IMG/VR virus record: IMGVR_UViG_3300020222_000057
Span: 1 to 43,004 of that record
Origin: a virus
Reading direction: 5' to 3' (one strand)
Length of the DNA: 43,004 bases
Position 1 is the first letter of the stretch. Each line of letters starts with the position of its first letter. The translations under genes and the position numbers were made by a program. This document shows, piece after piece, positions 1 to 34,824 of the stretch. Below the pieces are notes generated by a model. The model made no database searches, was not told where the DNA came from, and saw nothing but the letters and a program-made list of their open reading frames with translations.

Positions 1-426
1 GTTACTTCTTCCACTTGCACAGTTGGCGCTGCTGTTGCTAACGGCGTTCCTCCAAACAAAATTAGGAATGTATGGGGAGTAACTAAAGTATATGAGACAT
101 ATGTTGGCAGTAAAAAGTTTGAACCTGCTGATCCAATTTTCACAAAGATACGTGAACTTGGTGGAGAATATGGCGCTACAACTGGCCGTCCCCGTCAGTG
201 TAATTGGTTAAATACATCCTTGCTGCGTAAAGCAGCACGTATTAATGGAGTTAATAAAGTTGTATTTAATAAGGCTGATATTCTTAGAATGGTAGATAGT
301 TGGAAAGCATATGATTTAGATGGACGCTTAATTAATTTCCAAGATGAAGAGCTGATGAAGAACTGGATGCAAGAACTGTTACCAAATGTAGAATTATATT
401 GGAGTGACAGCCCAGAAAGAATCTAG
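1..426 (+). CDS. Adenylosuccinate synthetase-like protein (PurA or PurZ), C-terminal part
   Basis: The window opens inside this gene; frame 1 is open from base 1 to the TAG at 424-426 (141 residues). The stretch GEYGATTGRPRQCNW followed by INGV is the PurA signature around the aspartate-binding loop, and the C-terminus ends in WSDSPERI. PurA joins IMP and aspartate to make adenylosuccinate; phage PurZ homologs act on dGMP to make 2-aminoadenine precursors. The tail after INGV is only about 60 residues, much shorter than in E. coli PurA and closer to compact archaeal/PurZ forms. The N-terminal residue that separates PurA from PurZ lies outside the window, so the choice is open. Confidence 0.85.
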   Translation, partial: VTSSTCTVGAAVANGVPPNKIRNVWGVTKVYETYVGSKKFEPADPIFTKIRELGGEYGATTGRPRQCNWLNTSLLRKAARINGVNKVVFNKADILRMVDSWKAYDLDGRLINFQDEELMKNWMQELLPNVELYWSDSPERI

Positions 427-429
427 TAC

Positions 430-654
430 ATGAATGAACCTCAAATAGACATTGAATTAAAAACCGGTAAATATAATCGCGGAGAACAATATCCAGAATA
501 TGATTTTTCAGTAGCAGAAAAACATGGCGTCTATAATAAAGGTGGCGTTGTTGCTTGTACTAATAAACAGCTAAAAGAGCAAATAGATGATTTATTAAAT
601 AAGACACAAGACACACAAGTAACTTATATTTATTATGATGTAAAAGAAAAATAA
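430..654 (+). CDS. Hypothetical protein, 74 aa
   Basis: Starts 3 bases after the PurA/PurZ stop, so it is very likely in the same operon. Acidic/basic mixed protein with two glycine-turn segments (TGKYNRGEQYPEYDF, GVYNKGGVV) and a final beta-like VTYIYYDV. No family recognised. Its place suggests a nucleotide-metabolism or accessory role, but nothing in the sequence shows one. Confidence 0.7.
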   Translation: MNEPQIDIELKTGKYNRGEQYPEYDFSVAEKHGVYNKGGVVACTNKQLKEQIDDLLNKTQDTQVTYIYYDVKEK

Positions 655-740
655 AATGTAGTAGTTTACATCAGCCGAAACCTGTAGTAGAGTAGTGAAA
701 CGAACCCTGAGACAACAGGATAACCACAAAGGAGAAACAA

Positions 741-1031
741 ATGTCAAACCGTACATCCGCAACAACCCGTCGTTCTGCGAAGTCCAACACCGCCCGTCGT
801 AGCGCAAAGAAGGTCTTTGATGCAAAGACAGGCGTATATGAAAACAGCCACGAAGTATCTGGCTATGGTGTTCAAATCCGTCGCGGTGATACACGTCACG
901 GTGGCGAAAGCTTTGTCAAGATCTATGGTCGTGGCAGCGAAAGCGATACTGTTATGCTCTCTCTCCGCGAAGCACGTTCTCTTAAAGCGTTTCTAGAACG
1001 CGAACTAGATATTCTTGCACGCGCAGAATAA
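741..1031 (+). CDS. Basic hypothetical protein, 96 aa
   Basis: Start supported by a strong ribosome site (AAAGGAGAAACAA-ATG). The first about 25 residues are rich in Arg, Lys, Ser and Thr (TTRRSAKSNTARRSAKK), like a histone-tail or nucleic-acid binding segment. The rest reads as a small beta-alpha domain (GYGVQIRRGD, FVKIYGRG, then helix SLREARSLKAFLERELDIL). Codon use is less AT-rich than the flanking genes. Possible DNA/RNA-binding protein; family unknown. Confidence 0.75.
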   Translation: MSNRTSATTRRSAKSNTARRSAKKVFDAKTGVYENSHEVSGYGVQIRRGDTRHGGESFVKIYGRGSESDTVMLSLREARSLKAFLERELDILARAE

Positions 1032-1040
1032 TTGTAGCTG

Positions 1041-1087
1041 TTGACATACTTAACCCCACCGTGTGTAATAGCGGTGGGGTTTCTTAT
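1041..1087 (+). promoter_or_regulatory. Promoter with -10 in the loop of a terminator-like hairpin
   Basis: TTGACA (1041-1046), 17 bp, TGTAAT (1064-1069). The -10 lies in the 10-base loop between AACCCCACCG (1052-1061) and CGGTGGGGTT (1072-1081). The right arm is followed by a T-rich run, so transcripts arriving from upstream can form a terminator, while initiation here copies only the right arm. Drives the gene at 1098. Confidence 0.7.
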
Positions 1088-1097
1088 TGGAGATATT

Positions 1098-1526
1098 ATG
1101 AACGACAATAATTCTAATCTACTCAAAGCTTCTTTTCCAACTGTATTTCCAGAAAATTTCTATTTTGAATGTGGCGATGGATGGATTGATCTTATTAGCG
1201 AGATTGCTAGATTTATTTCTAATAAGACTTCAGAATGTTATGCTTCTCAAGTAAAAGAAAAATTTGGTACTCTTAGATTTTATATCGATTGCAAGAACGG
1301 TATTAGAGAAGAAGACTACGTTGAAATAGCTTCTTTTATTTCTGCTATTGAAAGACAAAGCGCACATATCTGCGAACGATGTGGAATAAAATTAGATGAC
1401 AGTAATCGCAATAAGATAAAAAGTTATTGGATACAAAATATTTGTGTTCAATGCAAGCAAAAAGAAGAGCTTGAACGTGAAGAAGCTCTTATAAAAAAAG
1501 CAATCAAATTAAGCAATGAGCATTGA
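1098..1526 (+). CDS. Conserved phage-type protein with KFGTLRFY motif and zinc-binding tail, 142 aa
   Basis: Start at 1098 follows GGAGATATT. The segments FECGDGWIDLI and VKEKFGTLRFY are the hallmark of a phage family I recognise only as hypothetical. A CERCG...CVQC pair near residues 92-120 can bind zinc. Sits just after the hairpin promoter and overlaps the next gene by 11 bases, so the following GDLV genes are probably co-transcribed. Function unknown. Confidence 0.8.
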   Translation: MNDNNSNLLKASFPTVFPENFYFECGDGWIDLISEIARFISNKTSECYASQVKEKFGTLRFYIDCKNGIREEDYVEIASFISAIERQSAHICERCGIKLDDSNRNKIKSYWIQNICVQCKQKEELEREEALIKKAIKLSNEH

Positions 1527-1782
1527 TGAACGGCTATTTCAAGCTGGAGATCTGGTAGAATATATTCCTGAAGCTTTTAACTCCTACAAAGATAAATATA
1601 TAGGGTCAGGATACGTTGAGTCAGTCGAATACAACTTCGCCATGGATAGCTATTTTTATACTGTAATCACTTTTAATACTATAAAACAATCAGCTAAAAA
1701 TTTTGCTGAATACCATTTGGGAGAGTATAAAAGATTATGGTCTGAACATGACGCTGCTGCTATATTAAGGAAAATATCATGA
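1516..1782 (+). CDS. GDLV-family SH3-like small protein, 88 aa
   Basis: First member of the large paralogous family in this window. AGDLVEY near residue 11 begins the first predicted strand, then GSGYVESVEYNF and YTVITF give the second and third. It lacks a strong ribosome site and overlaps the upstream gene by 11 bases and the next by 4 (ATGA), so translation is probably coupled. Function unknown; fold inferred from the GDLV plus alternating beta pattern. Confidence 0.75.
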   Translation: MSIDERLFQAGDLVEYIPEAFNSYKDKYIGSGYVESVEYNFAMDSYFYTVITFNTIKQSAKNFAEYHLGEYKRLWSEHDAAAILRKIS

Positions 1783-2012
1783 CCCACGATATTGGTGATC
1801 TTGTTGCTAGTTATACCGATGCAGCTCTGAAAAAAATAGAGGTTGGTTGGATAACAGAAATTGTTTATGAAAGCATATGGATAGCACATGTCGAACATAG
1901 TCAACCGGCTTATAGGATTCATTGGTGTACAGAAGAAGAACCTAATATTTTTTTACATAACGAAAACGATATTCTAGATATGAAAAATCTTTATGAAGAA
2001 TGGCATAGATAA
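1779..2012 (+). CDS. GDLV-family SH3-like small protein, 77 aa
   Basis: IGDLVASY at residues 4-11, then KKIEVGWITEIVYE and the core strand YRIHWCTEEE. This is the canonical family layout: entry motif, GW(I/V) strand, then Y-x-(V/I)-x-W. Start overlaps the previous stop as ATGA. Function unknown. Confidence 0.75.
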   Translation: MTHDIGDLVASYTDAALKKIEVGWITEIVYESIWIAHVEHSQPAYRIHWCTEEEPNIFLHNENDILDMKNLYEEWHR

Positions 2013-2256
2013 AAAAGATAAACACCAAATTGGTGATCTTGTAATGAAAAAACTTTCTACTAGAAAGCACACAAGATATATTTTAGGTGTTGTTAAAGAG
2101 CATCGTATAAAATACAATAATCGCAGTACAGCATATCCTTGGGGAATATATTGGGTAAATCAAGAAACCATAACACGCGATGGCAACACTTATCATACAG
2201 CCAGCGAAGTCACGCGATATAAAAATAACCTAAAAGAATATTTAGATAATTCATGA
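1993..2256 (+). CDS. GDLV-family SH3-like small protein, 87 aa
   Basis: IGDLVMKKL at residues 13-21, RYILGVVKEH as second strand, WGIYWVN in the Y-x-W position, then a polar helix (SEVTRYKNNLKEYL). Overlaps the preceding gene by 20 bases and the next by 4. The start at 1993 is the first ATG; a shorter form would remove the GDLV strand and is unlikely. Confidence 0.7.
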   Translation: MKNGIDKKDKHQIGDLVMKKLSTRKHTRYILGVVKEHRIKYNNRSTAYPWGIYWVNQETITRDGNTYHTASEVTRYKNNLKEYLDNS

Positions 2257-2690
2257 TAGACCACCACCTACCCACCACCCCACCACTACCTATCGGGGAG
2301 GTCGTGTTTATAAAATTAACTACATTTAAAAAAGATTTTATTAACACGGCATTAAAAACATATAAACATATGTCGTATAAAGACATAATGAAAATGTTTG
2401 GTGTTAGTGAAAAAGTAGCTAAGATAAAAAATAAAAATATATATTTTAATATTGACCCAAATATGATGGGTTATATTGTAAGCGAAAGAAAAAAGAAAGA
2501 AGATGAATACGGTAATATGCTTGGATACGAGGTTAAGTGGGAAACACTTAATAGCAAGCTTCCATTAAATACTGGTCAAACGTTTGCATATGAAAGTAGC
2601 TTATTGTCAATCTCGGATATAGTTATATTAGATATAGATAACTTATACGAGGAAATGACAGGTGAAAAAACCAAACGAAAGGCACAGTAA
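2253..2690 (+). CDS. Enlarged GDLV-family protein with inserted helical segment, 145 aa
   Basis: IGEVVFIKL replaces GDLV near residue 13. A helical insertion (residues about 27-50, MSYKDIMKMFGVSEKVAKI) looks like a short helix-turn-helix, and the later half restores the family pattern MMGYIVSER...YEVKWE. About twice the usual family length. A GDLV barrel with a DNA-binding insertion is one reading; only the pattern supports it. Confidence 0.65.
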   Translation: MIDHHLPTTPPLPIGEVVFIKLTTFKKDFINTALKTYKHMSYKDIMKMFGVSEKVAKIKNKNIYFNIDPNMMGYIVSERKKKEDEYGNMLGYEVKWETLNSKLPLNTGQTFAYESSLLSISDIVILDIDNLYEEMTGEKTKRKAQ

Positions 2691-2820
2691 AAACGAAACA
2701 CGTATAATAAATTTAGAAGACGATTCTAAAAAAGAAGATATAGATGTAACAGAATTAGCTTTATTGTCTGGTTTTGCTGGTATGGTTGTTATATGGGTGA
2801 TTACCTGTCTGTTTTGGTAA
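2662..2820 (+). CDS. Small membrane protein with GTG start, 52 aa
   Basis: GTG at 2662 after GAGGAAATGACAG, overlapping the previous gene by 29 bases. The N-terminal 33 residues are charged; residues about 35-52 (LSGFAGMVVIWVITCLFW) form one membrane segment reaching the C-terminus, a tail-anchored layout with the charged part probably cytoplasmic. No family recognised. Confidence 0.55.
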   Translation: MKKPNERHSKNETRIINLEDDSKKEDIDVTELALLSGFAGMVVIWVITCLFW

Positions 2821-3229
2821 AACATTTTTAGTGTCAGAATTTTGACTGTCAGATTTTTGACACCAAAAATATGGCGTCATTTTATTGGCGTCAAAAGATA
2901 CACGTTAAGTAACCGACGCCAGAATTTTGGCGTCAAAAAATTAGCTTAATAAATTCGCATATTTACGATGATGTATGTGAACGTATGGTCATGCCAACAT
3001 CCTAACGCGCCATATTTCCGGCGTCAACGCAACAACTTTAATGATTTCAAATGTTTACGAGGGGGTTGATTTTCTTTTCTGACTCGCGTACAATACCCTT
3101 GTGGAGTGTAGGTGCGCCAGCCGCCAACTTCATGCAATAACCGTGCCAATGTTATTATTTTTAGCGTGTTGACGGTGGGGGTAGGCTATGCAATAATGTC
3201 TGCATCTCTTGTTGAGGAAGGAAAAACAA
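2821..3229 (+). other. Non-coding region with dyad repeats (operator array or origin candidate)
   Basis: About 410 bases with no credible gene. Holds a set of dyads built on AGAATTTT: TCAGAATTTTGAC (2834-2846), TGTCAGATTTTTGACA (2847-2862), paired GGCGTCA copies (2873, 2887), the palindrome GACGCCAGAATTTTGGCGTC (2915-2934) and a lone GGCGTCA (3020). AACGTATGGTCATG at 2980-2993 recurs near 21.3-21.4 kb. Two promoters follow (3066, 3170). Confidence 0.6.
3066..3094 (+). promoter_or_regulatory. Sigma70-type promoter
   Basis: TTGATT (3066-3071), 17 bp, TACAAT (3089-3094), reading toward the zinc-knuckle gene. A second weaker candidate, TTGACG near 3170 with AATAAT near 3193, lies closer to the gene. 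Confidence 0.6.
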
Positions 3230-3817
3230 ATGGCTTGGATCAATGGGAAGCGTACTGTATACTGCCGTACCTGCTATGGTGTCGGTCACAATCGGCGCGG
3301 TTGCCCGCAGATTTCAGAGGCTACCAAGGCACGCTACAAGAGTGGAGATCTTGCGCGTAAGTGTTCCTACTGCTATACTGCTGGACACACGCGGCGCAAG
3401 TGCGAGAAGCTTACGCTTGACATGGCTAATGATGTGCGGCAGAATAGCGAGTATCGGCACAATCTCGCAGCGTTTATGATTTCTAATGGCATTGGTGTTG
3501 GTGCGCTTATCAAGCGTGCAGATGGTAGACAAGATGATATCTTTATGATTGATGATATTATATTTGACAGCATCACGCATCGTGATCCTAATAATGATGC
3601 TATCGTTGCTACCAATATTACTGATGCTAGCCAACATCAGCATAATTTTACTATGCCTTTGGATGCACCCTCTCCCAATAACGACTACTATGTTGATCAT
3701 TGGTACTCTTGCAAGGTTGTTTCCCCTGCCGACGAGGAAGCCGTGCGTGGCATGATTAGTGCAGAGTGGCTGACGGGAAAGAGTGGGCTTGACAAGCACT
3801 ACCAGAAGCGGCGATAA
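3230..3817 (+). CDS. Zinc-knuckle (CCHC) protein, 195 aa
   Basis: Start at 3230 chosen over an upstream alternative because GAGGAAGGAAAAACAA precedes it. Two CCHC knuckles of the C-x2-C-x4-H-x4-C type lie in the first 65 residues: CRTCYGVGHNRRGC and CSYCYTAGHTRRKC, both followed by basic residues, typical of single-stranded RNA/DNA binding. The C-terminal about 120 residues resemble nothing I know; FMIDDIIFDSITHRDPNND is probably a beta domain. Precedes the MoxR gene but has its own promoters. Confidence 0.75.
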   Translation: MAWINGKRTVYCRTCYGVGHNRRGCPQISEATKARYKSGDLARKCSYCYTAGHTRRKCEKLTLDMANDVRQNSEYRHNLAAFMISNGIGVGALIKRADGRQDDIFMIDDIIFDSITHRDPNNDAIVATNITDASQHQHNFTMPLDAPSPNNDYYVDHWYSCKVVSPADEEAVRGMISAEWLTGKSGLDKHYQKRR

Positions 3818-3864
3818 TAGCGCGGTCCCGGTTGCAGCGGGAAAAAGAAAAAAGAAATAAGTAG

Positions 3865-3894
3865 TTGCAAATGTAGATGAACCTGATGTAGAAT
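3865..3894 (+). promoter_or_regulatory. Promoter of the MoxR gene
   Basis: TTGCAA (3865-3870), 18 bp, TAGAAT (3889-3894). The leader that follows carries GCAGTTAACCCGCAGTAAA (3907-3925), nearly identical in the leader at 26330 and partly at 7259, and an AGAGG ribosome site. Confidence 0.75.
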
Positions 3895-3941
3895 ACTCCA
3901 ACCAACGCAGTTAACCCGCAGTAAATATAAGAGGTATACAC

Positions 3942-4991
3942 ATGGCTGTTGACTTTAAGACCTTCCTTAAGCTTGTTCCCCATGTTACCAACGTCAAGAA
4001 GCCTGTGCTTGTGCGCGGTCGTCACGGTATCGGCAAGAGCGAGACTGTCTATCAGTTTGCCGCTGCCGTTGGAAAGCGTGTAATCGAGCGTAGGGCATCA
4101 CAGCTCACAGAGGGCGACCTTATCGGCCTGCCTTCTATCGAGGGCAACAGCACCCGCTGGAACGCTCCTGATTGGATTAAGGCAGCTTGTGACGAGCCTG
4201 TGGTACTTTTTCTTGACGAGGTTGATCGTGCTACGCAGGAGGTTCGTCAGGGTATTTTCGAACTGACTGACTCCCGTAAGATTAATGGTTGGCACCTGCA
4301 TCCCGGTACGCTTATCTTTGCTGCTGTCAACGGTGGTGCGCATGGTGCACAGTATCAGGTTGGCGAGATGGACCCTGCCGAACTTGACCGTTGGACTGTT
4401 TTTGACCTTGAGCCTACCCCGGAGGATTGGCTTGACTTTGCCAAGGGCAAGGTGGATAATGCGATGTGGGATTTCATCAACCAGAACCGCACGCACCTTG
4501 AGCATAAGGGCGAGTATGAGCCTAACAAGGTTTATCCTTCCCGCCGTTCTTGGATGCGCTTGAATGAGTGCTTGCAGAGCGCAAATATGTATACTAACAT
4601 TCAGGACAATCTCTCTATGCTTTATGAGTTGACCTGTGCGTTTGTTGGCTTTGAAGCCGCTGTTGCCTTCCGTGACTTTGCCGAAAAGATTGACCGTCAG
4701 GTTACTGTTGAGGATATTCTTGACAAGGGGCAGCTTAATAAGGTAAAGTCTTGGACTATCAATGACCATACGGCCATGATTGACAAGATGATTGCTTCTG
4801 GTCGCCTCAAGCCTGACCTGACGCCGGAAATTGTCAAGAGCCTTGCTGATTATGCAAAGCTTGTTCCTAGCGAGGCGTTTATGAAGCTGTGGAGGGCTGT
4901 TGCCGCTGAGAACACCAAGAACACGGTGAAGCTGCATCCCATCGTTAAGGATCGTCTTGTGAAGGTGCTTGCACCTGACCAGAAGAAGTAA
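3942..4991 (+). CDS. MoxR-family AAA+ ATPase
   Basis: 349 residues. Walker A GRHGIGKS at 26-33, Walker B VVLFLDE at 87-93, then a sensor-like segment FAAVNGG. MoxR ATPases act as chaperones or remodelling motors and are usually paired with a VWA-domain protein, as here: the next gene has a VWA domain. The C-terminal about 60 residues (LADYAKLVPSEAFMKLWRAV, NTKNTVKLHPIVKDR) are repeated as the core of a separate gene at 17995. Ends with an embedded promoter. Confidence 0.9.
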   Translation: MAVDFKTFLKLVPHVTNVKKPVLVRGRHGIGKSETVYQFAAAVGKRVIERRASQLTEGDLIGLPSIEGNSTRWNAPDWIKAACDEPVVLFLDEVDRATQEVRQGIFELTDSRKINGWHLHPGTLIFAAVNGGAHGAQYQVGEMDPAELDRWTVFDLEPTPEDWLDFAKGKVDNAMWDFINQNRTHLEHKGEYEPNKVYPSRRSWMRLNECLQSANMYTNIQDNLSMLYELTCAFVGFEAAVAFRDFAEKIDRQVTVEDILDKGQLNKVKSWTINDHTAMIDKMIASGRLKPDLTPEIVKSLADYAKLVPSEAFMKLWRAVAAENTKNTVKLHPIVKDRLVKVLAPDQKK

Positions 4992-5038
4992 TATAATGCT
5001 TGGGAGGGGAGCAGCAATAAGGTTGTTCCCCTCCCTGC
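4969..5038 (+). promoter_or_regulatory. Promoter followed directly by a hairpin (short-RNA unit)
   Basis: TTGCAC (4969-4974), 17 bp, TATAAT (4992-4997) overlap the end of the MoxR gene. The predicted start, about 5004, falls on the hairpin GGGAGGGGA (5002-5010) / TCCCCTCCC (5027-5035). No U-run follows, so it may be a stable 5' hairpin or an inefficient terminator for upstream transcription. Confidence 0.55.
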
Positions 5039-5044
5039 TGTTGC

Positions 5045-5080
5045 TTGACACAACCCGTTGTTCTGTTGTATAATATGCCC
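5045..5080 (+). promoter_or_regulatory. Leaderless promoter of the VWA-metallopeptidase gene
   Basis: TTGACA (5045-5050), 18 bp, TATAAT (5069-5074), then 6 bases to ATG at 5081, which places the A of the start codon at +1. There is no ribosome site. Confidence 0.8.
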
Positions 5081-6262
5081 ATGACCAAGACCAACAACGT
5101 CCCCTTCGATCTCGATACCTACATTGTTTCCCTGCTCCAGAATGAGCCGTTCTTTGCGGGCATTTCACGTCATATTGATAAGCACCCCAATGACGCTATC
5201 CCTACTGCTGGTGTGCGTATTACTAGCAGCGGTCATTACGAGATGCTTTACAATCCTACCTTCTTCCAGAATCTTACGAATAAGGAGCGTGTAGCAGTTA
5301 TCAAGCATGAGTTTTATCATTTGATCTTTGGTCATGTGTCTGATAGACTCCCGTTTGACGAGGCTACCGGCAAGGGCAAGATGAACAAGCGTTGGAATAT
5401 TGCTACTGACCTTGCAATTAATTCCTTCCTTGCAGATGATTTGCCGTCTATGGCTTGTATCCCGGGCAAGGGACCGTTCAAGGATTTGCCTCTTGAAAAG
5501 AGCAGCGAGTGGTATTATGCTAATCTCCCAGAGAGTAAGGATGGTGATGGTGACGGCATGGGCGAACCTCTTGACGACCATAGCGGTTGGGGTGAGAACG
5601 CAGATAAGCTTGATCCTTCCATCAAGGAAATGGCAAAGCAGCGTCTTAAGGAAATGATGAAGGATGCTGCCGACCAAGCTGGTAAGAGCAGCAACGGTTG
5701 GGGTACTATGCCTCAGAGTGTTCGTCAAGAGATTTTGAATCGTATTAGTGCCAAGGTTGATTGGCGCAGCGTTTTGCGGTACTTTATCAAAACCTCTCAG
5801 CGGGCTGATAAGAACTCGACTGTTAAGAAGCTTAACAAGCGTTTTCCTTATATTCATGCTGGCAAGAAGGTGCAGCGTCATGCTAAGATTGCTATCTCAA
5901 TTGACCAGAGCGGTAGCGTTGGTGACGACATGCTTGAAATGTTCTTTGCAGAGTTGAACAATCTTTCTAAGATTGCTACATTCACGGTTATTCCTTTTGA
6001 TTGCGCTCTTGACGAGAAGCTGATTTATGAGTGGAAGAAGGGCAAGCACCGTAAGGCTGAACGTGTTATGCACGGTGGCACAAATTTTGATCCTCCCACA
6101 GATTATGTGAACAGACATAATTTTGACGGGCATATCATTCTCACCGATATGTATGCTCCTAAGCCGGGACCGTCAAGGTGTCAGCGTATGTGGCTCACTA
6201 GTGCCGACTGTGCGCGTAGCCCCTACTTCCAGACAAACGAGCGTGTAATCGCTATTGACTAA
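5081..6262 (+). CDS. VWA-domain metallopeptidase-like protein (MoxR partner)
   Basis: 393 residues from the ATG at 5081; an in-frame ATG at 5075 is less likely since it would precede the predicted transcription start. HEFYH at residues 76-80 fits the HExxH zinc-peptidase motif, and the C-terminal third has a VWA MIDAS motif, DQSGS near residue 280. This two-part layout (N-terminal peptidase-like domain, C-terminal VWA) is known next to MoxR ATPases in phages and bacteria. The pair probably forms an ATP-driven remodelling or processing complex; the substrate is unknown. Confidence 0.85.
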   Translation: MTKTNNVPFDLDTYIVSLLQNEPFFAGISRHIDKHPNDAIPTAGVRITSSGHYEMLYNPTFFQNLTNKERVAVIKHEFYHLIFGHVSDRLPFDEATGKGKMNKRWNIATDLAINSFLADDLPSMACIPGKGPFKDLPLEKSSEWYYANLPESKDGDGDGMGEPLDDHSGWGENADKLDPSIKEMAKQRLKEMMKDAADQAGKSSNGWGTMPQSVRQEILNRISAKVDWRSVLRYFIKTSQRADKNSTVKKLNKRFPYIHAGKKVQRHAKIAISIDQSGSVGDDMLEMFFAELNNLSKIATFTVIPFDCALDEKLIYEWKKGKHRKAERVMHGGTNFDPPTDYVNRHNFDGHIILTDMYAPKPGPSRCQRMWLTSADCARSPYFQTNERVIAID

Positions 6263-6270
6263 AATAACTG

Positions 6271-6313
6271 TTGACTCCCGGCAGAGAACCAGCGTATAAT
6301 CTCTGCCGGGAGT
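6271..6313 (+). promoter_or_regulatory. Promoter with -10 inside a 13-bp inverted repeat
   Basis: TTGACT (6271-6276), 18 bp, TATAAT (6295-6300). ACTCCCGGCAGAG (6274-6286) and CTCTGCCGGGAGT (6301-6313) are perfect inverted repeats; the 14-base loop holds the -10. Transcripts from here carry only the right arm; read-through transcripts carry the full hairpin. Confidence 0.8.
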
Positions 6314-6324
6314 TATCAAATCAT

Positions 6325-6579
6325 ATGACACCTACACAAAAAAAGTATACTGCTGCTCTTGGCAATCTTTACAAGTATCAAACTAATTGGTATGATTTCG
6401 GTCCTAATCCTAATCGTGTTCTTGTAATGGTTATGGGACTTGAAAAGAAATACAGCAGATGGTATTATAAGCTTATGCCTCTTGAGCAAAAACCCGACAT
6501 TAAACCTTGGATGTTACCAGAGTTTGAAGTATGTTGTGCTGATTTTATCTCTAGATCATATGAATGTGCTAATGAGTGA
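6325..6579 (+). CDS. TEKKY-family small protein, 84 aa
   Basis: Begins MTPTQKKYTAALGNLYKY, the signature of a second paralogous family here: M-T-P-[TA]-[EQ]-K-K-Y, then G-x-L. The middle has a beta strand (VLVMVMGLEKKY) and the end an aromatic-rich segment (FEVCCADFISRSYE). No ribosome site; the start lies about 18 bases downstream of the hairpin promoter. Function unknown. Confidence 0.75.
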   Translation: MTPTQKKYTAALGNLYKYQTNWYDFGPNPNRVLVMVMGLEKKYSRWYYKLMPLEQKPDIKPWMLPEFEVCCADFISRSYECANE

Positions 6580-6596
6580 GAATGTAAGTAAATCAA

Positions 6597-6860
6597 ATGA
6601 CTCCAACAGAAAAGAAATATTCCCTTGCTATTGGCGAGTTACTGCATTATAATTGGCAATATTGGTTGGATTGGGACAACGAATTAGTTAAGGCTGGAAT
6701 AGTTACAGTAATGGTTGCTGGCATTACTAAAAACGAACACAATGGTAGATACTTATATAATATGATGGTCATGGAAGAAACAAAAGTGCATTGGATAAAG
6801 CCAGAGTTTAAGATCCCATGTACCGATCTACAAAGGTATACTAAGCCATTGATTCCATAG
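6597..6860 (+). CDS. TEKKY-family small protein, 87 aa
   Basis: MTPTEKKYSLAIGELLHY start, then GIVTVMVAGITKNEHNGRY and FKIPCTDLQRY. Clearly paralogous to the preceding gene: same entry motif, central hydrophobic strand and late Cys-x-Asp-[FL] motif. 17 bases downstream of it, so tandem duplication is likely. Function unknown. Confidence 0.75.
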   Translation: MTPTEKKYSLAIGELLHYNWQYWLDWDNELVKAGIVTVMVAGITKNEHNGRYLYNMMVMEETKVHWIKPEFKIPCTDLQRYTKPLIP

Positions 6861-6877
6861 TTGACAGGAGCAAAACA

Positions 6878-7042
6878 ATGTGCAAACATGAGTATGAAGT
6901 ATTGGGAGAAGTTTTAGAAGTTCAGTTTGATGAAAACGATATTGCAGAAATGGTTGCAAAGCCTGTTTGGATGTGTTATCATTGTCAGGAAGTGACAAAT
7001 CTTCTTAACGAGGAAATCAACAATGTCGAACAAGCCTGCTGA
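6878..7042 (+). CDS. Small zinc-ribbon-like protein, 54 aa
   Basis: AGGAGCAAAACA before ATG. CKHEYE near the start and CYHCQE near residue 34 supply three Cys and two His in a zinc-ribbon-like spacing. Overlaps the next gene by 20 bases. Function unknown. Confidence 0.65.
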   Translation: MCKHEYEVLGEVLEVQFDENDIAEMVAKPVWMCYHCQEVTNLLNEEINNVEQAC

Positions 7043-7229
7043 TAACAATAACGATAGTTTTATTATTCACCCTGATGTTCAAGAGATTCTTAATGCTGTG
7101 CGCAAGTCTATTAATGAGTCTCGTGAAGCTGGTATCACCGGCCTTGCACAGATTGAAAAGACTGTCAAGGTTCACGGTGAAGTTACTAGGCGGACAGCAG
7201 ATCGCAAGAAGGTGCTTGACAAGAAGTAA
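7023..7229 (+). CDS. Hypothetical helical protein, 68 aa
   Basis: GAGGAAATCAACA precedes the ATG. Mostly helical and charged (VQEILNAVRKSINESREAG, then a basic tail TRRTADRKKVLDKK). The last codons encode the -35 of the next promoter. No family recognised. Confidence 0.7.
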   Translation: MSNKPADNNNDSFIIHPDVQEILNAVRKSINESREAGITGLAQIEKTVKVHGEVTRRTADRKKVLDKK

Positions 7230-7245
7230 GAAGCAAGTTTATAAT
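7216..7245 (+). promoter_or_regulatory. Promoter embedded in the end of the preceding gene
   Basis: TTGACA (7216-7221), 18 bp, TATAAT (7240-7245). Transcribes a long leader containing GGCAGTTAACC (7259-7269), similar to the leaders at 3907 and 26330, and ends in the GAAAGG ribosome site of the gene at 7317. Confidence 0.75.
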
Positions 7246-7316
7246 AGAAGCGTAGCAAGGCAGTTAACCTCTAACCCAACGTAGTAAAACCGCAGTACGA
7301 AAGGAACGTATATATT

Positions 7317-7562
7317 ATGTCCACTAACAATTCTGAGTCCATCCTGTCCGCTATTTCCTCCTATAATGTTGAGAACAAGCGTCCTTGCCCTGCCAAGTTC
7401 CTTAAGAACACCTTTGGTGATGTTGGAGAGGCTATCGAGTCGCTTAAGGCTTCTGGTGTGGTGATTGCCCGTCGAGGTCGTAATGGTGGCTTTACGGCTA
7501 CTGGCACCGTTCTTGAACAGCCTAGCGAGCAGGTCACTGATCCTGTTGCGTCTGTTGGCTGA
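7317..7562 (+). CDS. Small winged-helix-like protein, 81 aa
   Basis: Pattern helix (ESILSAISSYN), helix (CPAKFLKNTF), recognition-helix-like GDVGEAIESLKASGVV and a wing ARRGRNGGF. This matches the winged-helix layout of small regulators, but no residue-level family match is claimed. Acid/proline tail (EQPSEQVTDPVASVG). A DNA-binding regulator is possible. Confidence 0.65.
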   Translation: MSTNNSESILSAISSYNVENKRPCPAKFLKNTFGDVGEAIESLKASGVVIARRGRNGGFTATGTVLEQPSEQVTDPVASVG

Positions 7563-7656
7563 ACGTGGTATGCTGTAAGCAGGGAAGGCGAGGTTGCAAT
7601 TATGTGCAATCAAAGTATCCAAATGTGGATTCGCTCCTCGCCTTCCCTGTTGTTTT
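7546..7656 (+). ncRNA. Candidate small hairpin RNA with its own promoter
   Basis: TTGCGT (7546-7551), 17 bp, TATGCT (7569-7574) put the start near 7581, exactly on CAGGGAAGGCGAGG (7580-7593). This pairs perfectly over 14 bp with CCTCGCCTTCCCTG (7636-7649), followed by TTGTTTTC. An inner TTGCA/TGCAA dyad sits at 7594-7609. It could equally be only the terminator of the gene at 7317. Confidence 0.45.
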
Positions 7657-7676
7657 CTAATAAAGGATAATATACA

Positions 7677-7871
7677 ATGTCTCTCATTCGTTGTGCCGTC
7701 TGCCATAAAGCAGGTCTTGAAGATGATTTTGTTTTTGTACCTGTTGACGAGCAACATGAGCGGTTGATGTGTTTTTCGTGCGCTCCAGAAGATGCTATGC
7801 GTCAAACTTGGCCTGTTGACGACGAGGAGGAAACAGACTATAATAACGAGGCAGACGGTGACACAGACTGA
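7677..7871 (+). CDS. Small zinc-ribbon protein, 64 aa
   Basis: CAVC at residues 6-9 and CFSC at about 32-35 form a two-knuckle zinc ribbon. The C-terminal third is strongly acidic (DDEEETDYNNEADGDTD). AAAGGATAATATACA precedes the ATG. Overlaps the next gene by 14 bases. Function unknown. Confidence 0.75.
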   Translation: MSLIRCAVCHKAGLEDDFVFVPVDEQHERLMCFSCAPEDAMRQTWPVDDEEETDYNNEADGDTD

Positions 7872-8145
7872 AAAGAAATATTTTGCTAATGTAGGCAAGT
7901 TGTTCTATAATACCATCCGTAGAAGATTGGTGCTTGTAGAGCGCGTTTACCGTCCAGATTACGGTAATGCATTTAAATATGAGATAGTTTATTTAGACGA
8001 TACAGGCGTTAACGCATCTCTTCTACCAAAGAAAATTACAGCCATTGATTTTGTAAAAGAAATTGGCAAGCGATTTATTGAAGTGGAAAACGAACAGCAA
8101 CTAAAAAAAGTTATTGACGCTAATACAAGTAGTATTTTAAGATAG
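7858..8145 (+). CDS. TEKKY-family protein with GTG start, 95 aa
   Basis: GTG at 7858 gives MTQTEKKYFANVGKLFY, matching the family entry motif; a longer in-frame reading would add an unrelated N-terminus. Then RLVLVERVYR (strand) and a C-terminal helix with VIDANTSSIL. The last codons carry the promoter of the next gene. Function unknown. Confidence 0.7.
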   Translation: MTQTEKKYFANVGKLFYNTIRRRLVLVERVYRPDYGNAFKYEIVYLDDTGVNASLLPKKITAIDFVKEIGKRFIEVENEQQLKKVIDANTSSILR

Positions 8146-10398: not shown

Positions 10399-10486
10399 GC
10401 ACTTGAGGGGTGGTTTCCCCACAACCGACTTATAATCGGTCGCACTAGATTGGTGCTTGGCTAGGGTTCAATTCCCTACAGGTGCA
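10399..10486 (+). tRNA. tRNA with UAU anticodon and long (type II) variable arm
   Basis: Acceptor GCACTTG/CAGGTGC, D stem GGGG/CCCC, anticodon stem ACCGA/TCGGT with loop CTTATAA (anticodon UAU, codon AUA), variable arm GCAC-TAGATTG-GTGC, T arm TAGGG-TTCAATT-CCCTA, discriminator A. UAU tRNAs are normally isoleucine type I; the long arm is a Leu/Ser/Tyr feature. The charged amino acid is therefore uncertain. Confidence 0.7.
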
Positions 10487-10488
10487 TT

Positions 10489-10959
10489 ATGAAGAAATGT
10501 AAGAAGTGTGATACAATAAAAGAAGATGATGCTTTCTGTATGAGCAAGGGAAAGCTATACTCTACTTGCAAAAAATGTAAGAACGCTTACAAAAAGAAAT
10601 GGTATGGAGAAGGTGGGCAACAGTGGGAATTAACTTATAAAGTTTTTAGTAGAGTATCTAGAACACAACATTATCTTTTGTCAAAAGCAAAAGAGAGAGC
10701 AAAGAAAAAAAACATTCCGTTTGACATAACAGCAGATGATTTTATAGTTCCTGAGCGTTGTCCGATCTTGGGAACAAAATTGAAATCAGGTGATAGAAAA
10801 GTTTGCAATACTTCACCAACAATTGATAGAATCAGACCAGAGTTAGGATATGTAAAAGGCAATATACAGGTTGTTTCTTATAGAGCGAATACATTAAAAA
10901 GCAACGCAACGATAGAAGAACTTTTAAAAGTGGTTGAACATCTAGTGAAGATGAGGTAG
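10489..10959 (+). CDS. HNH-type phage endonuclease-like protein, 156 aa
   Basis: N-terminal zinc ribbon CKKC...CKKC (residues 4-31), basic middle (KERAKKKN), then CPILG and the conserved block PTIDRIRPELGYVKGNIQ...SYRANTLKSNAT. This block is common in free-standing phage HNH proteins and probably supplies the nuclease fold. It begins 2 bases after a tRNA and ends just before the intron-split tRNA-Leu. Likely a selfish homing nuclease acting at tRNA loci. Confidence 0.65.
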   Translation: MKKCKKCDTIKEDDAFCMSKGKLYSTCKKCKNAYKKKWYGEGGQQWELTYKVFSRVSRTQHYLLSKAKERAKKKNIPFDITADDFIVPERCPILGTKLKSGDRKVCNTSPTIDRIRPELGYVKGNIQVVSYRANTLKSNATIEELLKVVEHLVKMR

Positions 10960-10981: not shown

Positions 10982-11274
10982 GGGTAAGTGCTGGAATCGG
11001 TATACAGAGCAGACTTGATGAAATAATTTGAGCGTCTAGTGAGAAATTGCTAGAATGTAAGGTGTCAAATTCGGTGAAGCCTTAACTGGTAATACCGAGC
11101 CAAGCTAGGAGAAATCCTAGAAGGTGTAGAGACTAGACGGCACCTACCTGACCGTGTAATGACGAAGGTAAAGGTATAGTCCAGACCACAAACGCGCAAG
11201 CGGTAGCGAAAGCTATAGTGGTAAGAAAATCTGCCGGTCGAAAGACCATGTGGGTTCAAGTCCCACCTTACCCA
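10982..11274 (+). tRNA. tRNA-Leu(UAA) interrupted by a group I intron
   Basis: 5' exon 10982-11016 and 3' exon 11226-11274. Joined, they give an 84-nt leucine tRNA: acceptor GGGTAAG/CTTACCC, D arm CTG/CAG, anticodon stem GCAGA/TCTGC with loop CTTAAAA (anticodon UAA), long variable arm GGTC-GAAA-GACC, T arm GTGGG-TTCAAGT-CCCAC, discriminator A, CCA not encoded. The unspliced loop would look like a UGA anticodon, a likely mis-call by software. Confidence 0.92.
11017..11225 (+). other. Group I intron (IC3-like, 209 nt) in the anticodon loop
   Basis: Inserted between U34 and A35. All core helices can be drawn: P1 (exon AGACTT with GAGCGTCT), P2 TCTAG/CTAGA, P3 GGTGTC/GGCACC, P4 TCGGT/ACCGA, P5 GCC/GGT, P6 GCC/GGT with P6a CTAGG/CCTAG, P7 GACTA/TAGTC, P8 TACCT/AGGTA, P9 CCAC/GTGG with two inner hairpins. 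It ends in G (11225) and the 5' exon ends in U, as group I splicing requires. No ORF inside; HNH genes flank the tRNA. Confidence 0.92.
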
Positions 11275-11333: not shown

Positions 11334-11954
11334 ATGTCACTAAAACATATAAGCATAAAGCAGTTGACAGAAGCAGTAAAGCAGAGTTATAGTGCGGCAG
11401 AAGCAGCAAGGAAATTAGGCTTGACTGACACTGGAAACACAGCTACGAGATTGAAAAAGAAGGTGCTTGACAACAATATTGATACGTCACATTGGACAGG
11501 GCAGTTGTGGTCTAAAGGCAAAACAGCTTTAGATGATAGCAGACTCAGAAAAGAAAAGCCAGTAGAAGATATCTTTACAGAGGATAGTAACGCTTCTCCT
11601 CACTATGTAAGAACGCTGATAAAGAAAAAGAATCTTCTTGCCTATGGATGCGTGATATGTAATAATGACGGAACTTGGCTAGGTAAGCCAGTTAATCTTG
11701 AGTTAGATCATATCAACGGGAATAGAAAAGATAATAGGTTAGAAAATCTTAGATGGTTATGTCCTATGTGCCACAGTCAAACAGAAACATTCTGTGGAAA
11801 GAATATTAACAGTGGAGTCAAGAAGGTTCCAGACGAAGAAATATTAAGCCTGATACAAAAAGGTTTGAACAATCGGCAGATACTTATTAAAATAGGGTTA
11901 ACGCCAAAAGCAGGAAATTACAAAAGAGTAAACAAGTTAAGAGGTTTGTTGTAG
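11334..11954 (+). CDS. Free-standing HNH homing endonuclease, 206 aa
   Basis: N-terminal helix-turn-helix (SYSAAEAARKLGLTDTG), central HNH nuclease with C-V-I-C (near 108), LELDHINGNRKDNRLENL (near 122-139) and CPMCH, then a second C-terminal helix-turn-helix (NNRQILIKIGL). Begins 60 bases after the split tRNA-Leu, AAGGAGAGTATACC before ATG. Enzymes of this type cut intron-less or variant alleles; it could mobilise the neighbouring intron or itself. Separate gene, not intron-encoded. Confidence 0.85.
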   Translation: MSLKHISIKQLTEAVKQSYSAAEAARKLGLTDTGNTATRLKKKVLDNNIDTSHWTGQLWSKGKTALDDSRLRKEKPVEDIFTEDSNASPHYVRTLIKKKNLLAYGCVICNNDGTWLGKPVNLELDHINGNRKDNRLENLRWLCPMCHSQTETFCGKNINSGVKKVPDEEILSLIQKGLNNRQILIKIGLTPKAGNYKRVNKLRGLL

Positions 11955-11965
11955 AATAGTTGCAA

Positions 11966-12036
11966 GGGCTTGTAGCTGGAAGGTCAAGCAGGAGACTTTT
12001 AATCTCTCGATCTCGGTTCAATTCCGAGCAGGCCCA
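11966..12036 (+). tRNA. tRNA-Lys(UUU)
   Basis: Acceptor GGGCTTG/CAGGCCC, D stem GCT/AGC, anticodon stem GGAGA/TCTCT with loop CTTTTAA, T arm CTCGG-TTCAATT-CCGAG, discriminator A. Short 4-base variable loop. TAGAAT lies upstream at 11953. CCA not encoded. Confidence 0.88.
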
Positions 12037-13404: not shown

Positions 13405-13474
13405 GCAGGAGTAGCATAATGGCAATGCAATGGGGCACCGTTTTATGTTGGTTCAAGTCCAACCTCCTGCACCA
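13405..13474 (+). pseudogene. tRNA-like element with defective anticodon arm
   Basis: Acceptor GCAGGAG/CTCCTGC with encoded CCA, D arm identical to tRNA-Asn (12045) and a good T arm GTTGG-TTCAAGT-CCAAC. The 17 bases where the anticodon arm should be (ATGGGGCACCGTTTTAT) pair only through G-U wobbles, give no U33 and leave no variable loop. It is either a broken tRNA or a tRNA mimic. Confidence 0.55.
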
Positions 13475-29096: not shown

Positions 29097-29375
29097 ATGG
29101 GTAAACCAAAGTATAATATAGGTGATTTGGTTGGCACATGGTTGGCTTGTAAAGACCGTAAACATGAGTGTGTTTTGTTGGGTTGGATAACAAAAATAGA
29201 AGAAATCGCACTTGATGAACGTGATGCTTATATGGGAGTTTGGTGGTATACTATTGAATGGGCAGACAATGTAATCGAAGATCAACTATCTGAAGATACG
29301 GTTTCTGTTGTTGTAAAAGCATATCGTAACGCCAAGCGCTATAATCGATGGATACGAAAAAATGGTTTACACTGA
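29097..29375 (+). CDS. GDLV-family SH3-like small protein, 92 aa
   Basis: YNIGDLVGTWLACKDRKHEC, LLGWITKIEEIA and WYTIEWADNVIEDQL: full pattern with a longer mid loop. Overlaps the nuclease gene by 14 bases, so the two are translated together. Confidence 0.8.
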   Translation: MGKPKYNIGDLVGTWLACKDRKHECVLLGWITKIEEIALDERDAYMGVWWYTIEWADNVIEDQLSEDTVSVVVKAYRNAKRYNRWIRKNGLH

Positions 29376-34255: not shown

Positions 34256-34275
34256 AGGAAAGGTGCATGTATGAT
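34256..34275 (+). promoter_or_regulatory. Promoter of the HNH gene
   Basis: TTGACG about 34247-34252, 17 bp, TATGAT about 34270-34275. A start near 34282 excludes the upstream ATG and supports the ATG at 34303. Confidence 0.55.
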
Positions 34276-34302
34276 GAGAAAACTTCCAACGAGGTTTACA
34301 AC

Positions 34303-34824
34303 ATGAAAGTTCTCACCTTAGCTTCTAACTATGAGCCACTTGGAGTAGTCTCATGGGAACGAGCTATAACACTTATTTTTTCTAATAAAGTCACTACTTT
34401 AGAAGAATATGATAGCATTATACGCTCACCGTCAGTTACAATGAAAATTCCTGCCGTTATTGTTTTTAAAAACGGCAAGAATGGTAAACAAAAAAATTCA
34501 GTAAGATTTTCAAGAAAAAATGTTTGGATACGAGATGAAGGTAAGTGCCAATATTGTAGCAAATTTGTTTCTATTAATACATTTACGATTGATCACGTTG
34601 TTCCAAAAACTTCTGGCGGTAGAACAGTTTGGGATAATGTTGTAGCCTGTTGTTATACATGTAACCAGAAAAAAGGCGATAAGCATCTAAAAGATTCAGG
34701 TATGAAACTATTTAAGATGCCAAAGAAGCCAAATAAACTTCCTTATTTACAAGAAATAACTGACGGACAATATGATTTAGAGAAAAATATTCCTGTATCT
34801 TGGAAGTTTTATTTAGAAAGATAA
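34303..34824 (+). CDS. HNH endonuclease, 173 aa
   Basis: MKVLTLASNYEPLGVVSWER is a common N-terminal domain of this HNH family; then CQYC, FTIDHVVPKTSGGRTVWDNV and CCYTCNQKKGD give the complete zinc-HNH site. Start at 34303 preferred (ACGAGGTTTACAAC before it and promoter position). Present in phages and cyanobacteria as free-standing genes, probably a homing or packaging-linked nuclease. Confidence 0.85.
   Translation: MKVLTLASNYEPLGVVSWERAITLIFSNKVTTLEEYDSIIRSPSVTMKIPAVIVFKNGKNGKQKNSVRFSRKNVWIRDEGKCQYCSKFVSINTFTIDHVVPKTSGGRTVWDNVVACCYTCNQKKGDKHLKDSGMKLFKMPKKPNKLPYLQEITDGQYDLEKNIPVSWKFYLER

Follow-up and report, generated by a model that had tools for sequence, protein, structure and literature searches.

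The trnL(UAA) intron of cyanobacteria and plastids is a group I intron that lies between U34 and A35 of tRNA-Leu(UAA), and trnL(UAA) introns of Alphaproteobacteria and other bacteria, mostly 200–250 nt long, occupy the same site with the same fold. In phages, group I introns of protein genes (such as T4 td) are associated with HNH or other endonucleases, and all phage introns known to Hausner et al. in 2014 (PMC3984707) lay in protein-coding genes despite the many tRNA genes of phages. One route by which a phage intron can move is illustrated by the F-CphI/psbA intron of cyanophage S-PM2: a separately encoded enzyme cleaves the gene that lacks the intron, the donor is protected by its intron, and intron and enzyme gene are copied alike (PMC6083498). 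HNH endonucleases of the PHROG 10822 type, in turn, reside in phage tRNA arrays and adjoin tRNA-Leu in several sequenced phages, although the intron is absent from those arrays.

Here, we describe a viral locus that brings these elements together. The window, by which we mean the whole 43,004-nt stretch of IMG/VR viral DNA that was analyzed, carries a tRNA-Leu(UAA) gene with an IC3-like intron at U34|A35, a gene for an HNH endonuclease (P0002) downstream and an endonuclease-VII-like gene (P0001) upstream (Table 1). Collaborative homing of a self-splicing intron is in our judgment the best explanation of this arrangement, with a probability of roughly 0.7. The intron has the insertion site, core fold and GAG guide of the cyanobacterial/plastid trnL intron and can be aligned with it over the whole length; it differs in being phage-borne, in its size (209 nt versus 221–312 nt in the cyanobacterial loci compared), in its separate lineage in trees and in its flanking endonuclease genes. 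From the other bacterial trnL introns it is set apart by clade and by its nuclease neighbors. As in the F-CphI/psbA case, a free-standing endonuclease gene sits beside an intron-bearing phage gene and intronless copies exist in relatives, but in the window the interrupted gene encodes a tRNA, the main nuclease is of the HNH rather than the endonuclease VII type, and cleavage is putative. The interrupted gene likewise distinguishes it from the phage introns of protein genes. Genes for a head maturation protease and a DNA polymerase exonuclease subunit mark the contig as a tailed-phage genome or part of one, and blastn of window positions 1–8000 against sequenced phages gave no match, so that stretch has no close sequenced relative.

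Table 1. Features of the intron-bearing tRNA-Leu(UAA) locus and its neighbors (window coordinates).
Feature	Position	Strand	Basis or remark
tRNA-Ile(tat), left array anchor common with relative G005	10399..10486	+	upstream of P0001
P0001, 156 aa, endonuclease-VII/HNH-like, stops 22 nt 5' of tRNA	10489..10959	+	PHROG 3322 endonuclease 2e-34; PHROG 1035 endonuclease VII 1.4e-24
tRNA-Leu(UAA) 5' exon, 3' end C32-U33-U34	10982..11016	+	ARAGORN with introns; spliced form an 84-nt tRNA
Group I intron, IC3-like, 209 nt, between U34 and A35, last base G11225	11017..11225	+	RF00028 50.0 bits; covariation
Internal guide GAG, pairs with exon CUU (11014-11016), U.G at 5' splice site (P1)	11030..11032	+	sequence, conservation
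P2	11035-11039 with 11050-11054	+	73.7% of cells paired; two-sided changes in 4/5 pairs
P3	11061-11066 with 11139-11144	+	100% of cells paired; two-sided changes in 4/6 pairs
P4	11071-11075/11094-11098	+	window fold and alignment
P5	11079-11081/11088-11090	+	window fold and alignment
P6	11099-11101/11123-11125	+	window fold and alignment
P6a	11105-11110/11115-11120	+	window fold and alignment
P7, guanosine-binding helix, pseudoknotted with P3	11131-11135 with 11177-11181	+	100% of cells paired
P8	11145-11149 with 11166-11170	+	window fold and alignment
P9	11185-11189/11218-11222	+	window fold and alignment
P9a	11193-11195/11200-11202	+	window fold and alignment
P9b	11204-11207/11212-11215	+	window fold and alignment
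tRNA-Leu(UAA) 3' exon, first bases A35-A36, long variable arm	11226..11274	+	ARAGORN, spliced tRNA call
P0002, 206 aa, HNH endonuclease, begins 59 nt 3' of tRNA	11334..11954	+	Pfam HNH_3 6.7e-8; PHROG 10822 8.9e-48; C-C-H-N-C-C-H motif
tRNA-Lys(ttt), right array anchor common with relative G005	11966..12036	+	downstream of P0002

The structure of the tRNA gene itself is clear. With its intron option on, ARAGORN calls a tRNA-Leu(taa) with a 209-nt intron ('gactt-Intron-aaaat'); the spliced sequence is recognized as an 84-nt tRNA-Leu(taa), and the unspliced DNA of the locus yields no tRNA call. A first-pass annotation made from the sequence had placed the gene at exactly these coordinates, with U34 and A35 split by 209 nt, an intron ending in G and a UAA anticodon that exists only after splicing, and on all of these points it was right. 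The position, between U34 and A35 of tRNA-Leu(UAA), is that of the trnL(UAA) (IC3 tRNA) family. At the splice sites, U11016 can pair with G11030 and the intron ends in G11225, features conserved in 38 relatives, a count to be read in light of the fact that the parser used for the relatives itself demanded the exon U and the terminal G. Within the guide, G11030 and G11032 are invariant and A11031 is nearly so across the 38 introns.

The window intron is a real group I intron. The Rfam group I model RF00028 matches at 11007–11206 with 50.0 bits, exactly the curated cut-off of the family (E 6.8e-12 in a 441-base search, 1.5e-13 in a genome search). The default whole-window Rfam scan did not list the intron and default ARAGORN did not call the gene; absence from routine annotation is therefore no evidence in either direction. 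The whole RNA (295 nt) folds 5.35 sd below its dinucleotide shuffles, and each named helix from P2 to P9b can pair in the window, in line with the first-pass annotation, a U.G pair being possible in P1. Together, these helices form the P4–P6 and P3–P8 domains with the P3/P7 pseudoknot. To assess the structure, we aligned 38 tRNA-Leu(UAA) introns of phage, alphaproteobacterial, acidobacterial and cyanobacterial origin, which share dozens of invariant columns. Standard pairs fill 91.4% of the pair cells, compared with 26–46% when the partner is slid by 1–3 columns; the alignment contains the window, from which the structure was taken, and this favors the unslid percentage while hardly affecting the two-sided changes. 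Such compensatory changes are found in 29 of 50 helix pairs and in 322 cells (shuffled mean 104), the covariation score is 0.444 (0.152 when shuffled and at most 0.094 when slid), and P3, P6, P7 and P9b are paired in 38/38 sequences. The intron is very probably functional. The precursor would fold into the P3–P9 core, and GTP attack at U34, guided by the GAG/CUU pairing, would free the intron and create the UAA anticodon.

How widespread are such introns? A 19-base core motif is present in at least 120 contigs of IMG/VR and in 118 or more bacterial contigs. For these other loci, ARAGORN boundaries were often misframed (for example, 'tRNA-Tyr ata', or L007 as Leu) and were replaced by those of a rule-based parser that looked for the acceptor, anticodon and T stems and accepted only 5' exons ending in U and introns ending in G. 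An intron at U34|A35 of tRNA-Leu(UAA) was parsed in at least 61 viral loci, and among the matches listed it is present in 65 of 118 bacterial contigs, mostly Alphaproteobacteria. Carriers include the 735-kb huge phage LR756501 (205-nt intron) and the cultured Agrobacterium phage Atu_ph07 (278-nt intron). These two introns, like that of the 595-kb phage LR756511, have no Rfam match at E 0.01, which may explain why they were overlooked; the word "intron" is absent from the Atu_ph07 paper and from the main text of the huge-phage paper. At the level of loci, RF00028 misses the compact phage tRNA introns of L122, L123 and L271 even at E 0.01. We found no report of phage tRNA group I introns in the open-access literature, including after 2014; judged on that literature, widespread phage tRNA introns appear to be unreported. 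Since default tRNA and Rfam searches overlook these genes, phage tRNA counts leave out split tRNAs.

The same type of intron is found at U34|35 of viral tRNAs Lys(UUU), Arg(UCU), Thr(UGU), Ala(UGC) and Ser(UGA), with the caveat that parser boundaries in non-Leu rows may be one position off. The guide reads only C32-U33-U34, a triplet common to all viral non-Leu host tRNAs but one, which would account for the occupancy of these other U34 tRNAs and suggests that the intron spread between tRNA genes via the common CUU exon end. The loci with an intron after U34 in viral Lys, Ala, Arg, Thr or Ser tRNAs are L032, L035, L038, L039, L057, L063, L078, L111 and L114. Class-I-like UAA tRNAs of 73–74 nt with a short variable arm hold the same intron at L010, L048, L074, L085, L092, L095, L098 and L109, and similarly short, intronless tRNA-Leu genes (UAG, CAA, UAA) are present in Citrobacter phage Maleficent (L286).

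The first-pass annotation had also taken the intron to be mobile. It probably is, but the true evidence of mobility lies in the two endonuclease genes on either side, and both had been missed. P0002 has the full set of zinc cysteines and catalytic H-N-H residues, and all seven (C106, C109, H126, N138, C143, C146 and H147) are invariant in 13 homologues. Close relatives of P0002 were absent from an IMG/VR search; more distant ones are present in the fetched loci and in sequenced phages. P0001 is less well defined: it has no Pfam match and no counterpart in the other loci examined, and despite its PHROG profile matches it lacks the DHDH string of the endonuclease VII/DHHRN pattern and a clear catalytic histidine motif. 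Sequence searches of the PDB gave no useful relative of either protein. The adjacency of a free-standing endonuclease gene and the intron-bearing gene is recurrent. Within 1 kb of viral intron-bearing tRNA-Leu genes, the density of HNH-type ORFs is 0.19/kb, compared with 0.079/kb near other tRNAs and 0.005/kb elsewhere in the same loci, and an HNH motif is found nearby in only 1 of 65 bacterial intron loci. Relatives of P0002 are encoded in 31 fetched loci, 29 of them with a parsed intron tRNA, and in 26 of these 29 the relative lies within 300 nt of that tRNA or inside the intron; for most of the loci counted, the presence of an intron was the reason for retrieval, and the set includes several near-copies (8 clusters at 60% identity). 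The positions vary: 3' on the same strand, as in the window; 5' and ending a few nucleotides before the tRNA; 3' on the opposite strand; and within the intron itself. At three loci, an HNH gene of the P0002 type lies within the intron: L271, in LR756511, where the gene is in the P6 region of a 700-nt intron, and L174 and L226, in Bacilli MAGs with tRNA-Leu(UAA) introns of 687 and 677 nt. Thus, in some phages and Bacilli the intron has the organization of a classical mobile intron.

As a control, we considered 10 phage loci chosen by P0002 homology alone. Eight lie beside tRNA genes, five of these being nearest tRNA-Leu, and none of the 10 has an intron. The P0002 family is primarily an inhabitant of tRNA arrays that leans to tRNA-Leu and secondarily an intron partner, so the linkage described above may primarily involve tRNA genes, with the intron coming second.

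Relatives of the window phage, found through the head protease, provide an empty site. One relative, G005, has a head protease 72% identical to that of the window and a tRNA array that reads Ile-Leu(UAA)-Lys, where the window reads Ile-P0001-Leu/intron-P0002-Lys. The Leu gene of G005 is intronless, and the spacers of its array, 52 and 17 nt long, leave no room for either nuclease gene. Across the insertion point, both Leu genes read CAGACTTAAAATCTG, but their acceptor and T arms differ; they hold the same array position and are not close alleles. Because the exons differ outside the D and anticodon arms, the window and G005 may not be a simple pair of alleles. Two further observations concern these relatives. 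The window tRNA-Ile(tat) has an unusually long body of 88 nt, and an 85-nt counterpart opens the G005 array (L268 3738–3822). Another relative, G008, has a different group I intron at L270 (50947–51248, minus strand; RF00028 58.6 bits).

Comparisons between phages carrying the intron point in the same direction as the empty site. The introns of L009 and L109 are 98% identical, the exons 60% and most other shared DNA about 67–74%, and the tRNAs differ in kind: an ordinary 83-nt tRNA-Leu in one case, a 73-nt tRNA whose variable arm is short in the other. Whole-locus blastn shows that these phages are related, so the claim is one of excess intron identity only. For L044 and L109, the introns are 97.5% identical, the exons 58% and the only other shared stretch 72%. 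Such an excess would be expected after homing in which only short flanks were co-converted.

How, then, might the intron have come to be where it is? We propose that the P0002-family HNH enzyme would target tRNA-Leu genes that lack the intron in co-infecting phages, cutting them near the anticodon arm, while in its own genome the intron would split and so protect that site, and that repair from the intron-bearing genome would copy the intron and the adjacent nuclease genes together. The empty site, the recurrent adjacency and the excess intron identity are all consistent with such collaborative homing. An intron that is common in phages, absent from the array position of a relative and beside or carrying an endonuclease would provide a concrete mechanism for the movement of anticodon-loop introns between genomes and between tRNAs. 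Additionally, a single nuclease family is seen here in both free-standing and intron-encoded form at the same insertion site, as expected if mobile introns are made through invasion by a neighboring nuclease gene.

The alternative that survives best, which we nevertheless regard as rather unlikely, is that a splicing trnL intron was inherited vertically with its phage tRNA and that the HNH neighbors are self-homing endonucleases of tRNA arrays that do not move the intron. The presence of P0002-family enzymes in intronless arrays agrees with vertical inheritance, as does the distribution of HNH ORFs, which are detectable within 1 kb in 22 of the 61 listed viral intron loci and missing from the other 39. 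What weighs against it is the same evidence that favors collaborative homing, i.e. the empty site in G005, the introns of L009/L109 and L044/L109 that are far more alike than their exons and surrounding DNA, and the three introns that enclose the nuclease.

The relationship of the window intron to those of cyanobacteria is a separate question, for which we have three trees that rest on ~200 columns and do not include plastid sequences. In the first of two Leu-only trees, 54 viral introns group together (SH-aLRT 92), as do the cyanobacterial introns (100) and 48 introns of other bacteria (86), and the viral, bacterial and cyanobacterial labels require 4 changes compared with ~40 for shuffles. 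This tree places the window intron weakly as sister to the cyanobacteria (SH-aLRT 80, long branches), and the dereplicated version leaves it unplaced, loosely near them on a long branch. In the all-isotype tree, which is the best sampled, it falls in a viral clade of 31 rows (94) and there in a set made up of phage introns only (97% SH-aLRT). In all three, the window intron lies outside the cyanobacterial clade, which in the two Leu-only trees has 100% SH-aLRT and a long stem; the highest identity of the window intron is to phage introns (74–76%). An AU test rejects neither the window with cyanobacteria (p 0.21) nor all phage introns as one clade (p 0.095). We are moderately sure that the window intron belongs with the phage introns.

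These trees bear on the remaining claims of the first-pass annotation, which had seen in the window a small, phage-borne, mobile link for the ancient intron of cyanobacteria and chloroplasts. The intron is compact, lies on a phage contig and is probably mobile, but the specific cyanobacterial/plastid link is unsupported, since the cyanobacterial introns form a clade without it; the insertion site is indeed that of the cyanobacterial and plastid intron, but it is no cyanobacterial property, being shared by the 65 bacterial loci noted above. A larger scenario, in which the anticodon-loop intron has long been maintained and carried by phages, its mobility there sustained by an HNH enzyme that targets tRNA-Leu, and in which bacterial and perhaps cyanobacterial (hence plastid) trnL genes were seeded from phages before the nuclease was lost and the intron fixed, is speculative and in our view unlikely. 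The opposite direction, recent capture of tRNA-Leu and intron from a cyanobacterial host, which would mean that the phage directly carries the cyanobacterial intron, is very unlikely: the shared insertion site and the weak sister placement in one tree speak for it, but the separate long-stemmed cyanobacterial clade, the closer identity to phage introns and the phage-only set of the all-isotype tree speak against it, and no cyanophage relative was found for the phage as a whole. A direct cyanobacterial origin is unsupported in the three trees.

Might the intron instead be kept because it benefits the phage, hiding the precursor from host anticodon nucleases or using splicing to switch the supply of tRNA-Leu(UAA)? 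UUA accounts for 205 of the 578 Leu codons in the phage, more than any other, and the intron sits exactly in the anticodon loop, but the mature tRNA would be as exposed as any other and the evidence for mobility accounts for persistence without such a benefit, making this a highly improbable explanation. Finally, that the intron is decayed and non-splicing, leaving a dead tRNA, is scarcely credible, for although the Rfam score stands only at the cut-off, other compact phage introns score even lower, indicating that a low score reflects the model, and the window intron retains all core helices with compensatory changes, P7, the terminal G and the guide, between exons that form a full tRNA.

Several other features of the window deserve mention. 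A tRNA at 13405–13471 is seen by Rfam (50.2 bits) and missed by ARAGORN. A third HNH endonuclease (HNH_5) is encoded at 34267–34824, directly before the DNA polymerase exonuclease gene, and an ORF at 29362–30066 matches the MvaI/BcnI restriction endonuclease family (Pfam PF15515, 2.9e-20). At 3942–6262, a MoxR-like AAA ATPase gene adjoins a DUF2201 VWA/metallopeptidase-like gene.
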